Origin: Acidobacteriota bacterium
GTDB lineage: Bacteria; Acidobacteriota; Thermoanaerobaculia; Thermoanaerobaculales; Sulfomarinibacteraceae
DNA: 60,532 nt
Direction of reading: 5' to 3'
NCBI GenBank assembly: GCA_022340775.1
Contig: JAJDNH010000166.1
Coordinates: 1-60,532 of the forward strand
The notes beneath the pieces were generated by a model. The model did not search any database, was not told the DNA's origin, and worked only from the letters and a program-made list of their open reading frames with translations. Both the position numbers and the translations under genes were made by a program. Below are positions 72 to 55,794 of the stretch, in pieces. The stretch's first letter is position 1, and each line of letters opens with the position of its first letter.

Positions 72-435
72 ATGAAGAGGAAACACCTGTTTGTTTTCTA
101 CTGCTCGCTGCTCGTGCCCATGAGTGTCCTAGCCCACATCATTCACTCGCAATCTACTGCGACCGGCGATACGCCAGCCACCGCCGTGCTCTTCGCGTCT
201 CGGTGTCCTCAACATACCGTCAAGTATGCCTGCGGCACCTCGATGCTCAGAACCCAGCGCTGACAAGCGTCTCGCCGGTCTCGCTACGATCGCTCATGAA
301 TAATGCGGGCCAGCCGGCATCGGAGCGGGGCGCGCCACCGGCCTGCCTGCGCTCGGCGTGCTTCTCGGCATAGCCATCGGTATTGAGGTCTCCTACCTTC
401 TGTTGCGCTTCACCTCCCCCGGCGACACCCCGTAG
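72..435 (+). pseudogene. Small two-helix membrane protein gene split by a MITE-like insertion
   Basis: An ATG at 72, after a purine-rich GGGGGTGGAG, opens a signal-like hydrophobic N-terminus (MKRKHLFVFYC...) that runs into the repeat at 131. After the repeat, a second hydrophobic stretch (GVLLGIAIGIEV...) in another frame ends at TAG 433-435. Removing exactly 131..311 (181 bp) joins CT to AGCC and gives one continuous 60-residue frame with two hydrophobic segments and a natural stop. Seen: both halves and the arithmetic of the join. Inferred: this was one gene that the repeat entered. No family is recognised. The present frame reads through the repeat and stops at 263, so any product today would be chimeric. 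Confidence 0.45.
131..311 (-). repeat. MITE-like element, copy 1 (181 bp)
   Basis: Full-length copy in reverse orientation relative to the copies at 41068 and 54538. Its ends are imperfect inverted repeats (AGCCCACATCATTCACT at the left; the complement of GGCCCGCATTATTCATG at the right). It carries the shared core ending in CGATCGTAGCGAG (read on the minus strand) and a central hairpin at 196..245. The tetranucleotide AGCC lies at 131-134 and again at 312-315. One of these is inside the inverted repeat, so a target duplication cannot be claimed. There is no ORF of transposase size, so any movement would need help from elsewhere. Confidence 0.8.
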
Positions 436-41067: not shown

Positions 41068-41249
41068 AGTCCGGGTCGTCCATGAGCGATCGTAGCGAGA
41101 CCGGCGAGGCGTCTGTCAGCGCAGGGTTCTGAGCGTCGAGCTGCCGGAGGCATACCTGGAAGGTATGTTGAGGACAGCGAGACGAGAAGAACACGGCGAT
41201 GGCTGGCGTATCGCTGGTCGCAGTAGATCGCGAGTGAATGATCCGGGCT
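41068..41249 (+). repeat. MITE-like element, copy 2 (182 bp)
   Basis: Full-length copy. The 5' end AGTCCGGGTCGTCC and the complement of the 3' end GAATGATCCGGGCT form imperfect terminal inverted repeats. Central hairpin at 41134..41184. It fills most of the 314-bp gap between dacB (start 40933) and the DprE1-like gene (stop 41248). The terminal CT of the element and the next base A form CTA, the complement of that gene's TAG stop. Confidence 0.82.
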
Positions 41250-42678
41250 AGGGAAGGAGCAAGCGGTCGGCGAGGGCAGAACGCAGGAGGCGCCCGGGAT
41301 CGGTGCGCTCCTTGATGGCGGCGAAGCGCTCCAGCTGCCCATCGCGGAAGGTGGCTCGGTACAGCTCGCCGGGCAGGGCTGCGTCCTTGGCCGGATAGAA
41401 CCGGCCGCCGGCCTCGACCACAGGCTCAGCAAGATCGGCGACCAGCCGCCACAGGCGGTCGCGGTTCGAGGCCGTGACCGGGAAATCGAGCGCCAGCGAG
41501 AATCCGTCGACGGCGTGCGTCAGCAGGAAGGGGTCGGGGCGGTGCCGCTTGAGCACAGCCAGGAACGAGGGCAGCCCGGCCCGGCGGCACAGCTCGAGCT
41601 GGCGCGCGAACACGCCCTCGGCCTCGGCCACCGGCACGAACGACTGGTGCTGGATGAGGCCCCCCGGGAGGTACACTCGCTCCCAGTTCGGCACGTAGTC
41701 GAGCAGGAACGAGAACTCGGCCAGCGTCTGGCGGTACCGCTTGTCGTTGCCGATCGTGCTCCCGAGTCGAAACTTGACTGCGTTGATGAGGCGCATCCCC
41801 GGCCGGTTTGTGAGGGGCTTGAGGAACCTCCAGAGCAGCGCCTTCGGGACCACCCCTGCCAGCCTCGCCGGCAGGTCCTGCGCCTCGGCCCGCAGGCTTT
41901 CCTGGGCGGCCGGGTCCTCATCTGCCTTGACGTGGTTGGCGAAGTGGAGCAGCCCGCGACCGCTGCGCCCGCCGCTGGCGAAGGCATCGATCCAGCCGAC
42001 CACGTACTCCCACCGATTCTTCGCGTCGTCGGCCAACCGCAGCATCGTGGCCAGGTCCTGGGCCGCAACCGCATGCACCTCGAGGCGGCCGGAGTGGACC
42101 CGCTTGAGCCGAACTCGGGCGCCGACGATGACCCCCAGCTGGCCGAAACCGCCGATGACGGCGTGGAAAAGCTCCCCGTCGGTCTCGGGCGTCACCGTCC
42201 GCAGTTCGCCGGACGGTAGCAGCATCGTGAGCTCCAGGCAGTGCTCCCCGAGTGTGCCGCGAGTCCAGTTGTTCTTGCCGTGAACGTTCATCGCCAGACC
42301 GCCACCGAGAGTCGGCGTCATGGTGCCGGTGACGACCTCTGGCCACCAGCCATCCGCGAGGACCGAGCGCCACAGGTCGTGGAAGGTCACGCCGGGCTCG
42401 ACTTGGGCGACCCCGTTCGAGGCATCCCAGCCGAGGATACGGTTCATCTCTGAAAGGTCGAGGACGACAGCTTCCGCGAGCAGCGCAGCATCGCCGTAGC
42501 TGCGGCCCGCCCCGCGCAGCACCACCGGCACGCCGCGGCTGCGGGCAAGCTCCAGCACCTCGCGTATCTGGCCGACGTTCGTCGGGCGGTAGACATAGCC
42601 GGCGGCGCCGGCCGCTCTGCCCCAACCCTCGACCCATTCGACCTGCCGGCCCGGTAGCGCGTCGCGCATTCGGCTCAT
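41248..42678 (-). CDS. FAD-linked oxidase of the DprE1 type
   Basis: 476 aa. VEGWGR, LRGAGRSYGDAAL (FAD binding), NVHGKNNWTRGTLGEH with a His at 133, IQHQSFVPV, then DGFSLALDFPV and GGRFYPAKDAALPG line up with mycobacterial DprE1, which oxidises polyprenylphosphoryl-ribose at C2'. The Lys of AKD and the HGKN His are conserved; the Cys targeted by benzothiazinones (GWNICVDF in DprE1) is Ala here. The start at 42678 overlaps the SDR stop (ATGA). With the adjacent DprE2-like SDR it would make polyprenylphosphoryl-arabinose. Comparison is from memory of the M. tuberculosis sequence. The stop lies on the end of a repeat. Confidence 0.82.
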   Translation of the reverse strand: MSRMRDALPGRQVEWVEGWGRAAGAAGYVYRPTNVGQIREVLELARSRGVPVVLRGAGRSYGDAALLAEAVVLDLSEMNRILGWDASNGVAQVEPGVTFHDLWRSVLADGWWPEVVTGTMTPTLGGGLAMNVHGKNNWTRGTLGEHCLELTMLLPSGELRTVTPETDGELFHAVIGGFGQLGVIVGARVRLKRVHSGRLEVHAVAAQDLATMLRLADDAKNRWEYVVGWIDAFASGGRSGRGLLHFANHVKADEDPAAQESLRAEAQDLPARLAGVVPKALLWRFLKPLTNRPGMRLINAVKFRLGSTIGNDKRYRQTLAEFSFLLDYVPNWERVYLPGGLIQHQSFVPVAEAEGVFARQLELCRRAGLPSFLAVLKRHRPDPFLLTHAVDGFSLALDFPVTASNRDRLWRLVADLAEPVVEAGGRFYPAKDAALPGELYRATFRDGQLERFAAIKERTDPGRLLRSALADRLLLP

Positions 42679-46195: not shown

Positions 46196-46296
46196 AGCGG
46201 AGCGGCCCCTCGGGACCGGCACGACGGACCGAGGCTAGCCTCGAGGACCGACTGACGGTTCCCGAGGAGTGCGGCCGCAGGCCGCGGATCTGCCTG

Positions 46297-46405
46297 AGCC
46301 CGAGTCCTCCTGTCGTCACTCACTGCGAGCGGCGGCATGCCACCTAGTGCCGTGCCTTTCGCATCTCACGGGTCTCGCTACGATAGCCCGCGGACAATCC
46401 GGGTC
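46297..46405 (-). repeat. MITE-like element, 109-bp deletion derivative
   Basis: Matches copy 1 from its left end (AGCCCGAGTCCTCC...ACTGCGAGCGGCG...GCCGTGC) and at its right end (GGTCTCGCTACGATAGC...AATCCGGGTC). The central hairpin is missing. In the full copy the lost segment lies between two CGTCTC repeats, so recombination between them would give this form. Confidence 0.65.
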
Positions 46406-46425
46406 AGCTGATTGGAGCGACGGCG

Positions 46426-54360: not shown

Positions 54361-54714
54361 CCCGCGTTGGCCCCCTCGAGGGATGCAGCCGCAGATCACA
54401 GGTCCGCCATACCCCGGTCCCCTCACCAAGGACGGTCCCGCGGTGGGGCGGGGATGGGACTGAAGGCGGCAAACGGCCACCCCGCCGCGGGCCAGGAAAC
54501 CAAGAAATCTCAAAGACTAGAGTCCGGAGAATCTTCGAGCCCGGGTTATCCGGGCGCGATCGTAGCGAGAGCGGCGAGACGCTTGTCAGGGCTGGGATCT
54601 GAGCGTCGAGCTGCCGGAGGCATACTCCCTGTATGTTGAGGACAGCGAGACGCAAAGAGCACGGCCCTGGCTGGCGTTTCGTCGCTCGCAGTAGTTCGGA
54701 ACGGATGAGCCGGG
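54361..54714. other. Repeat-filled interval between convergent genes
   Basis: Contains the second interspersed repeat (54392..54475) and MITE-like copy 3 (54538..54716). No gene seen. Confidence 0.6.
54392..54475 (+). repeat. Second interspersed repeat, copy 2
   Basis: Same motif as 46101..46195: AGATCACAGGTCCGCC, CCCCTCACCA and CGGTCCCGCGGTGGGGCGGGG. About 60 bp before MITE-like copy 3. Confidence 0.6.
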
Positions 54715-54716
54715 CT
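54538..54716 (+). repeat. MITE-like element, copy 3 (179 bp)
   Basis: Full-length copy: AGCCCGGGTTATCCG at the 5' end and CGGATGAGCCGGGCT at the 3' end are 15-bp imperfect inverted repeats (13 of 15 match). Central hairpin at 54604..54652. The 3' CT plus the next A is the complement of the TAG stop of the gene at 54715. Confidence 0.82.
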
Positions 54717-55794
54717 AAACGAGGTACTCGCCGTCCTTGATGATCTCGATGCTGCGACCGTCCGCGTGCAGGATCGCCGCACGTCGCACCTGCACGGGGT
54801 TGCCCTTGGCGTAGACGATGTCCTGATGGACGACCGTCTCCGGCGACCGGAAGTCGGCGACTCCGGTCACCCCGCCGAGGTGGTCGGAACGGCCGAACGC
54901 CCAGTGGAAACCGGCCTTCTCGTCCTCGAGCACGTTGCCGGTAACGGCCGCGCGCTCGTTGACGCCGAACGCGACCTCGGCGATGTTGGCCCGCGTCGGA
55001 TCCTCACTGAACATCTCGGCGTAACGATCTGCCACCGATCCCTCGCCCTCGACCATCTGGACACGGTTGGCGCTGACGTGGAAGAGGATGGTCTGCCCCT
55101 CCTCGATCACCGGGATCACGCCTGCCGTCCAAGAAGGATCACCCTCCAGCTCGCCCTCGTACGGAACCTCGAAGGTCTCGCCGGAGGGGAGATTGATGAT
55201 GCGGTCGCCCTCCTTGAAACGCGGCAGGAAGCCATCATCGACCTCTGCCACGCGGTGGCGAAGGTCGAACCAACAGCGGTGACCGGTGGAAAACTCGACA
55301 TCGCACAGGCTCGCTCCGCGCATCGCCTCCGCGATCTCCTGGCACCGGCGGGCGACCTCGGCGTAGTTGGCGGCCAGCGCGGATTCCTCCATCCGTTTGA
55401 GCACTCCGGGCATCGATGCGGCCCTGAAGTCCTCCTTCTTCTCGGCCATGATCGACAGCGGAGCGGTGGCCGAGTACTCGGTCATCGCGATCACCAGGGT
55501 CGAGGCCACCAGGGTCGGCAGCAGCTCGACCTCGGCGCCCTCCAGCCACCCGACAGCGGGCAGATCGGCGTTGTTGGCCCCGGTGGCCGGAAAGCTGAGC
55601 ATCGGGTTAACCGTAAAGGCGCGCTCGTGGGCGAGGCGCGCCATCGCCTCCCGCCACTCCTCGGCCATCTGCCGCCGTTCACGCCACTCGGCGTTATCGG
55701 AGATCCCGTCGTGAGGAAGGTCCACAGCTACCGTGACCACCTCGTCAGGCTGTGGGTCGAAGACGTCGACCAGAAGCTTCTCGAGATTGAACAT
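54715..55794 (-). CDS. M29-type aminopeptidase (thermophilic metalloprotease family)
   Basis: 359 aa. Layout fits M29 peptidases (AmpS/aminopeptidase T): MFNLEKLLVDVFDPQPDEVVTVAVDLP, helical middle, then a metal-binding C-terminal half with SGETFEVPYEGEL, ANIAEVAFGVNERA, KAGFHWAFGRSDHLGG and the late HQDIVY. Conserved Glu, His and Asp ligands appear present. Cytoplasmic, removes N-terminal residues. ATG 55794 has GGAGGG five bases upstream; the longer frame to 56490 overlaps the divergent gene. The TAG stop lies on the end of MITE-like copy 3. Confidence 0.82.
   Translation of the reverse strand: MFNLEKLLVDVFDPQPDEVVTVAVDLPHDGISDNAEWRERRQMAEEWREAMARLAHERAFTVNPMLSFPATGANNADLPAVGWLEGAEVELLPTLVASTLVIAMTEYSATAPLSIMAEKKEDFRAASMPGVLKRMEESALAANYAEVARRCQEIAEAMRGASLCDVEFSTGHRCWFDLRHRVAEVDDGFLPRFKEGDRIINLPSGETFEVPYEGELEGDPSWTAGVIPVIEEGQTILFHVSANRVQMVEGEGSVADRYAEMFSEDPTRANIAEVAFGVNERAAVTGNVLEDEKAGFHWAFGRSDHLGGVTGVADFRSPETVVHQDIVYAKGNPVQVRRAAILHADGRSIEIIKDGEYLV

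Follow-up and report, generated by a model that had tools for sequence, protein, structure and literature searches.

An imperfect hairpin at positions 41134-41184 of the window, the whole 60,532-nucleotide stretch of Acidobacteriota DNA that was analysed, recurs at two further places in the same stretch, and in one of them both sides of the stem have changed together. This raises the question of whether the hairpin is maintained as a structure, in which molecule that structure is selected, and what kind of sequence carries it.

The hairpin and the element around it

The sequence-only reading had described copy 2 of the hairpin as a stem of CGTC-GA-GCTG against CAGC-GA-GACG under a CATACC/GGTATG cap, and both letters and coordinates are correct. 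Copy 1 (196-245, minus strand) has GGTG/CACC where copy 2 has GCTG/CAGC, which is a genuine two-sided swap from C-G to G-C, and copy 3 (54604-54652) retains the CATAC/GTATG pairing around a different loop. That reading omitted that CATC in copy 1 (for CGTC) faces an unaltered GACG, by which one pair is broken (A-C). The reported hairpin is not a separate unit but forms the tip of a hairpin that runs end to end through 184 nt. The window contains this element of approximately 184 nt three times in full and once as a 113-nt deletion form, as listed below together with the two genes adjoining copies 2 and 3.

129..313, minus strand: full copy 1 (central hairpin 196-245), covariance-model match of 201.8 bits
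41066..41251, plus strand: full copy 2, subfamily A, end-to-end hairpin, covariance-model match of 191 bits
41134..41184, plus strand: central (apical) hairpin of copy 2, with a tandem G.A/A.G step at 41138-41139 / 41179-41180
41248..42669, minus strand: FAD_binding_4 protein of 473 aa (Pfam PF01565), its TAG stop at 41248-41250 coinciding with the 3' end of copy 2
46295..46407, minus strand: 113-nt deletion derivative in which the inner part of the hairpin is missing, covariance-model match of 31.6 bits (E 1.1e-4)
54536..54718, plus strand: full copy 3 (central hairpin 54604-54652), covariance-model match of 193.3 bits
54715..56490, minus strand: 591-aa protein with no Pfam match, its TAG stop at 54715-54717 coinciding with the 3' end of copy 3

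The whole element folds into a single long imperfect hairpin (MFE of -102 kcal/mol for copy 2 at 41070-41260, z of -8.8 against shuffles), the unpaired internal loops and apex of which are conserved. When copy 2 was used as query against its own genome, a MAG of 3.83 Mb in 251 contigs, 46 matches were obtained, and a covariance model built from 29 full copies recovered about 30 near-full copies in addition to a second subfamily, B, and 113-nt deletion forms. Subfamily B has about 20 copies of approximately 187 nt, is about 47% identical to family A and has the same architecture; its ends read GAGGTCCGG...CCGGACCTC, and the left flank TCGTTCAGAGTCTC is partly conserved. Identity is 81-83% within each of the two families and 42-55% to copies from relatives. 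The element matched none of the Rfam 15 covariance models, either at the gathering threshold or at a relaxed E<=1.

Several copies are rearranged. Short copies akin to 46295..46407 look as if they were deleted between direct repeats of GCGAGACG. In six family A copies, 275-290 nt of additional sequence, with ends like those of B, are inserted at one site, and since the same insertion is found in different A sub-types, recombination among copies is suggested. Three others have a G-rich insert of approximately 90 nt, a possible G-quadruplex, in the apical loop, and in seven cases the left half of a B element lies directly 5' of an A copy as a fused element. Two other genomes (G034 and G014) have variants of a different size, approximately 304 and 73 nt, with the same termini as the element.

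Covariation and the selected strand

The compensation in the three window copies might by itself be due to chance; the genome-wide set is not. Among the 29 full copies the swapped pair is C-G in 19, G-C in seven and U-G in two, the cap pairs vary between A-U/G-C, U-A/G-C and C-G/G-C, and the tandem G.A/A.G step is replaced on both sides by G-C/C-G in four copies. In a sequence-only alignment of these copies, two-sided changes were found at 24 of 62 pairs, a number reached by none of 500 shuffles, while sliding the partners gave 4-10. Two-sided changes extended to 54 of 57 pairs in a set of 54 diverse sequences, for which the covariation score was 0.60, compared to 0.10-0.13 for slid partners. 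Relatedness among copies raises counts of this kind, and a further analysis therefore mapped the substitutions onto a tree and redistributed them at random. Against this null, 205-270 double compensatory events were observed across the element sets where about 15 were expected (maximum 30); this includes a sequence-only alignment of 103 sequences (205 against 14, maximum 29), and in the own family alone there were 30 where the null gave 2.8 (maximum 9). The central hairpin, with its 16 pairs, showed 11 such events where 0.7 were expected and the highest value in 500 tree-aware simulations was 4; sliding the partners by 1-3 columns left none.

A covariation test of the R-scape type had been proposed for this hairpin. 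A strict tree-aware test of that kind per pair, which has little power on these data, reached E<0.05 at four helix pairs only in the 103 sequences and at no pair in the 29 same-family copies. The strength of the covariation lies in the aggregate. The fold has been retained through hundreds of matched mutations, and the sequence is a real structured mobile element.

The substitutions also discriminate between the strands. G-U pairs outnumbered A-C mismatches by 245:16 in family A, 105:32 in family B and 329:61 in relatives (679:109 overall), an excess of approximately 6-15 fold for the overall and family A counts; these counts rest on a structure derived from the plus strand and favour that strand. 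When restricted to the 46 pairs common to the predictions for both strands, G-U was still in excess (37:15). The plus strand gave the better fold in 108 of 109 copies (30/30 in A, 19/19 in B and 59/60 in relatives). A G-T mismatch on one strand reads as A-C on its complement, so that neither selection on double-stranded DNA nor hairpin-templated repair can distinguish the two. The G-U excess and the preference for folding one strand therefore indicate that the selected molecule is a single strand, either RNA or ssDNA, and that a palindrome in duplex DNA is not what selection acts on.

The element is short and non-coding, has terminal inverted repeats and occurs in many dispersed copies, as expected of a MITE. 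A plain DNA MITE is nevertheless a very improbable account; in this reading a transposase would recognise the palindrome in double-stranded form, and repair templated by the hairpin would create the appearance of covariation. Its length of 100-200 bp and its CTAG/TTAA ends would fit as well, but the one-sided G-U excess in family A and the nearly uniform strand preference refute such a MITE as the sole explanation, and conservation of unpaired loops and apex also speaks against it. The earlier claim of selection on RNA structure, and not just on DNA ends, is accordingly well founded for structure, where aggregate covariation and single-strand bias strongly support it. That the selected strand acts as RNA is likely, and the more natural reading; since the same strand again folds better with DNA parameters, an ssDNA intermediate would fit too.

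Ends, insertion sites and neighbouring genes

One genome has two copies that share 98.9% identity, lie in unrelated flanks and are both bounded by CTAG...CTAG, from which it follows that the element moves and has done so recently; copies in general are dispersed at unrelated sites. Among about 80 unique copies the ends are mostly YTAR (CTAG/CTAG in 23, TTAA/TTAA in seven). The outer letters are directly identical in 41/47 and 37/47 cases, figures that are confounded with inverted repeats since YTAR is palindromic, and the end statistics suggest a target-site duplication. At an orthologous gene pair inspected for an empty site, the element was absent and the intergenic DNA could not be aligned, so that no clean empty site was obtained.

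Genes were called with a home-made codon-usage gene finder, and each copy was read in the plus direction. In the own genome, the downstream neighbour lies on the opposite strand for 24 of 28 A copies and 19 of 20 B copies. For 34 of 59 copies, the 3' end of the element coincides (-4 to +6 nt) with the stop codon of an opposite-strand neighbour, and three further copies adjoin tRNA 3' ends with a gap of 1-4 nt; in total, 37 copies have their 3' end at a stop codon or at the end of a tRNA, compared to one copy for the 5' end (sign test, p about 3e-10). Two other loci, the composite copy L037 and, in another genus, L091 (gap 0), also adjoin tRNA 3' ends, and a few other copies finish by eye at an apparent terminator T-run. 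The rule is weaker in relatives, where at least 16 right ends (13 after removal of duplicates) and at least five left ends coincide with stop codons. There the context is mixed, with the downstream neighbour on either strand about equally often and some copies located just 5' of ribosome-binding sites. Homologues of the FAD_binding_4 protein without the element end 0-8 aa from the C-terminus of the window protein, and those of the 591-aa protein, present in 19 genomes of the family, mostly have the same last residue. Neither flanking gene is thus truncated. In several genomes, tandem short repeats of GGAATTC/GGATTTC type directly follow the stop of the homologue of the 591-aa protein.

This arrangement can be read as a functional 3'-end RNA, in which a transcript reading through from the upstream gene would be terminated or processed by the plus-strand hairpin just short of the point where it would run antisense to the adjacent gene or tRNA, the spread of the element being a by-product. 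We regard this as unlikely, although it is the main rival: in the own genome the element is mostly found between convergent genes, its folded strand directed toward the opposite gene and its 3' end on the stop codon or tRNA end of that gene, and the fold bias is on exactly the strand expected. The mixed context in relatives, including the copies in front of ribosome-binding sites, does not agree with such a role, which furthermore would not require an exact spacing of 0-4 nt; the T-tract of intrinsic terminators is also missing. The fold is constant downstream and upstream of genes, in sense and antisense, and in many genera, which is hard to reconcile with a benefit at each site and fits a requirement of propagation.

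On balance we therefore consider it probable, though far from certain, that we are dealing with a small mobile element, non-autonomous and fixed in size at about 184 nt, the functional form of which is one folded strand. The fold itself would be needed for propagation, as an RNA or ssDNA intermediate, and the folded strand would be recognised in trans by a putative enzyme. New copies would land at YTAR-like sites. In GC-rich DNA, safe sites of this type would largely be stop codons (YTAG, YTAA), which accounts for the location at stop codons, with the element's own TAR end restoring the stop. Effects on neighbouring genes, such as 3'-end protection, processing or a block to antisense read-through, would be secondary. 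Three observations count against the mobile-element reading. Firstly, a palindromic target should give orientation-neutral insertion, yet the ratio here is 37:1 (relatives are less biased), and the YTAR target leaves this orientation bias unexplained. Secondly, a mobilising gene was not found among the Y1, IS1380, reverse transcriptase and IS candidates. Thirdly, the search at the orthologous gene pair gave no clean empty site.

Distribution, candidate mobilisers and known systems

The element was identified in 27 of 40 related genomes, covering nearly the whole family and part of a sister family, and in 59 of 297 genomes (44 of 167 genera) drawn across Acidobacteriota. Many of these carry dozens of copies; counts in relatives are to be read as at least the number found, and the genomes compared include MAGs, which are incomplete. 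Almost all full matches across the phylum are 181-187 nt. The named carriers are Thermoanaerobaculales, Holophagae and further Acidobacteriota MAGs, including Candidatus Sulfomarinibacter, and by these names the genome of the window would be of the Thermoanaerobaculia type. A distinct subfamily of about 50% GC was found in two Candidatus Aegiribacteria MAGs, which possibly reflects either presence across phyla or mis-binned contigs. In a scan of genome contigs, the sequence of an own-genome copy gave no matches, and the apex of relatives gave 39 stretches. None of the phages, plasmids and viral contigs searched matched the element.

IS1380 (PF13701), considered as a candidate parent for a resemblance of the ends, is absent from the own genome, and matching ends were found nowhere else. 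No IS with the ends of the element was found in 60 genomes searched, pairs of ends separated by 1.5-1.6 kb that might have marked a larger IS proved to belong to distinct fragments of the element on either side of host genes, and the recurrent neighbouring proteins were ordinary host genes only, none of them mobiliser-like. A SINE-like retroposon, arising by reverse transcription of its RNA with priming at the 3' ends of genes, would agree with the RNA-like fold and with the joining of the element's 3' end to gene 3' ends. This is the least probable of the readings considered, as reverse transcriptase was detected in only 13 of the 40 relatives, does not parallel copy number and is missing from most element-rich genomes (G001, G004, G005, G007 and G013), and as the copies show neither a 5' truncation series nor a tail.

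Mobilisation as a REP-like element, in which a Y1 transposase (RAYT/TIRYT) would act on the hairpin in single-stranded form, has more in its favour and is still improbable. Y1 genes are present in 31 of the 40 relatives, and the element shares with REP/REPIN sequences the strand-specific hairpin, many copies near stop codons and termini that supply TAG (PMC3733652, PMC3116915). REP termini often provide TAG stops (PMC3733652), and in E. coli, according to work cited in PMC12306157, REPs located <=15 nt from a stop codon lower translation. However, a copy lies near only two of about 36 Y1 loci, approximately the chance level, and no Y1 gene was detectable in the element-rich genomes G007, G018 and G019. 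The Y1 genes moreover have their own, unrelated inverted repeats of 16-34 bp, mostly of the GGTGCCA type. In many Thermoanaerobaculia-type genomes these repeats lie about 1 kb apart and are mostly of the GGTGCCAGG/GGTGCCACG type. A REP is a hairpin of 20-40 bp with an unpaired GTAG at its foot, whereas the element is a several-fold longer, single 184-nt hairpin with GYAG in an internal loop and not at the foot.

Small bacterial repeats are usually viewed as dead remnants of DNA transposons. Here, a precise single-strand fold and its length are kept across a phylum, with covariation typical of functional RNAs, which makes it testable whether small repeats propagate or act as folded RNA or ssDNA. 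We tentatively raise the possibility that this is a selfish, RNA-like bacterial element of a new class, with a size-locked 184-nt fold, that would spread through the phylum (possibly beyond it, given the two Aegiribacteria MAGs) as a folded single strand by means of a putative enzyme, and insert at gene 3' ends including those of tRNA genes. A covariance model could annotate many unlabelled intergenic regions of Acidobacteriota, and a precise question arises as to what leads a mobile element to stop codons and tRNA ends.

Integron attC sites are imperfect palindromes adjoining stop codons, and their bottom strand is folded. The element resembles them in being an imperfect palindrome beside stop codons with one folded strand. 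In contrast to attC sites, no cassette arrays and no conserved attC core at the ends were seen, and the element is tRNA-adjacent too, its copies lying singly beside ordinary genes. Acido-1 and Acido-Lenti-1 (RF01686, RF01687) and Solibacter-1 (PMC2864571) are likewise candidate structured RNAs of Acidobacteriota; the element has no Rfam match and thus differs from the first two, which the comparison covers (Solibacter-1 is not in Rfam). There is also a likeness to the bacterial MITE-like repeats ERIC/IRU, NEMIS/Correia, RUP and YPAL (PMC2229807), which are likewise intergenic sequences of 100-200 bp in high copy number, frequently with TA-containing inverted termini and with a transcript forming a stem-loop over its whole length. 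The element is distinguished from these by a parent IS that was not found, by conserved loops and apex, by very strong single-strand covariation, and by a phylum-wide occurrence at a nearly constant 181-187 nt.
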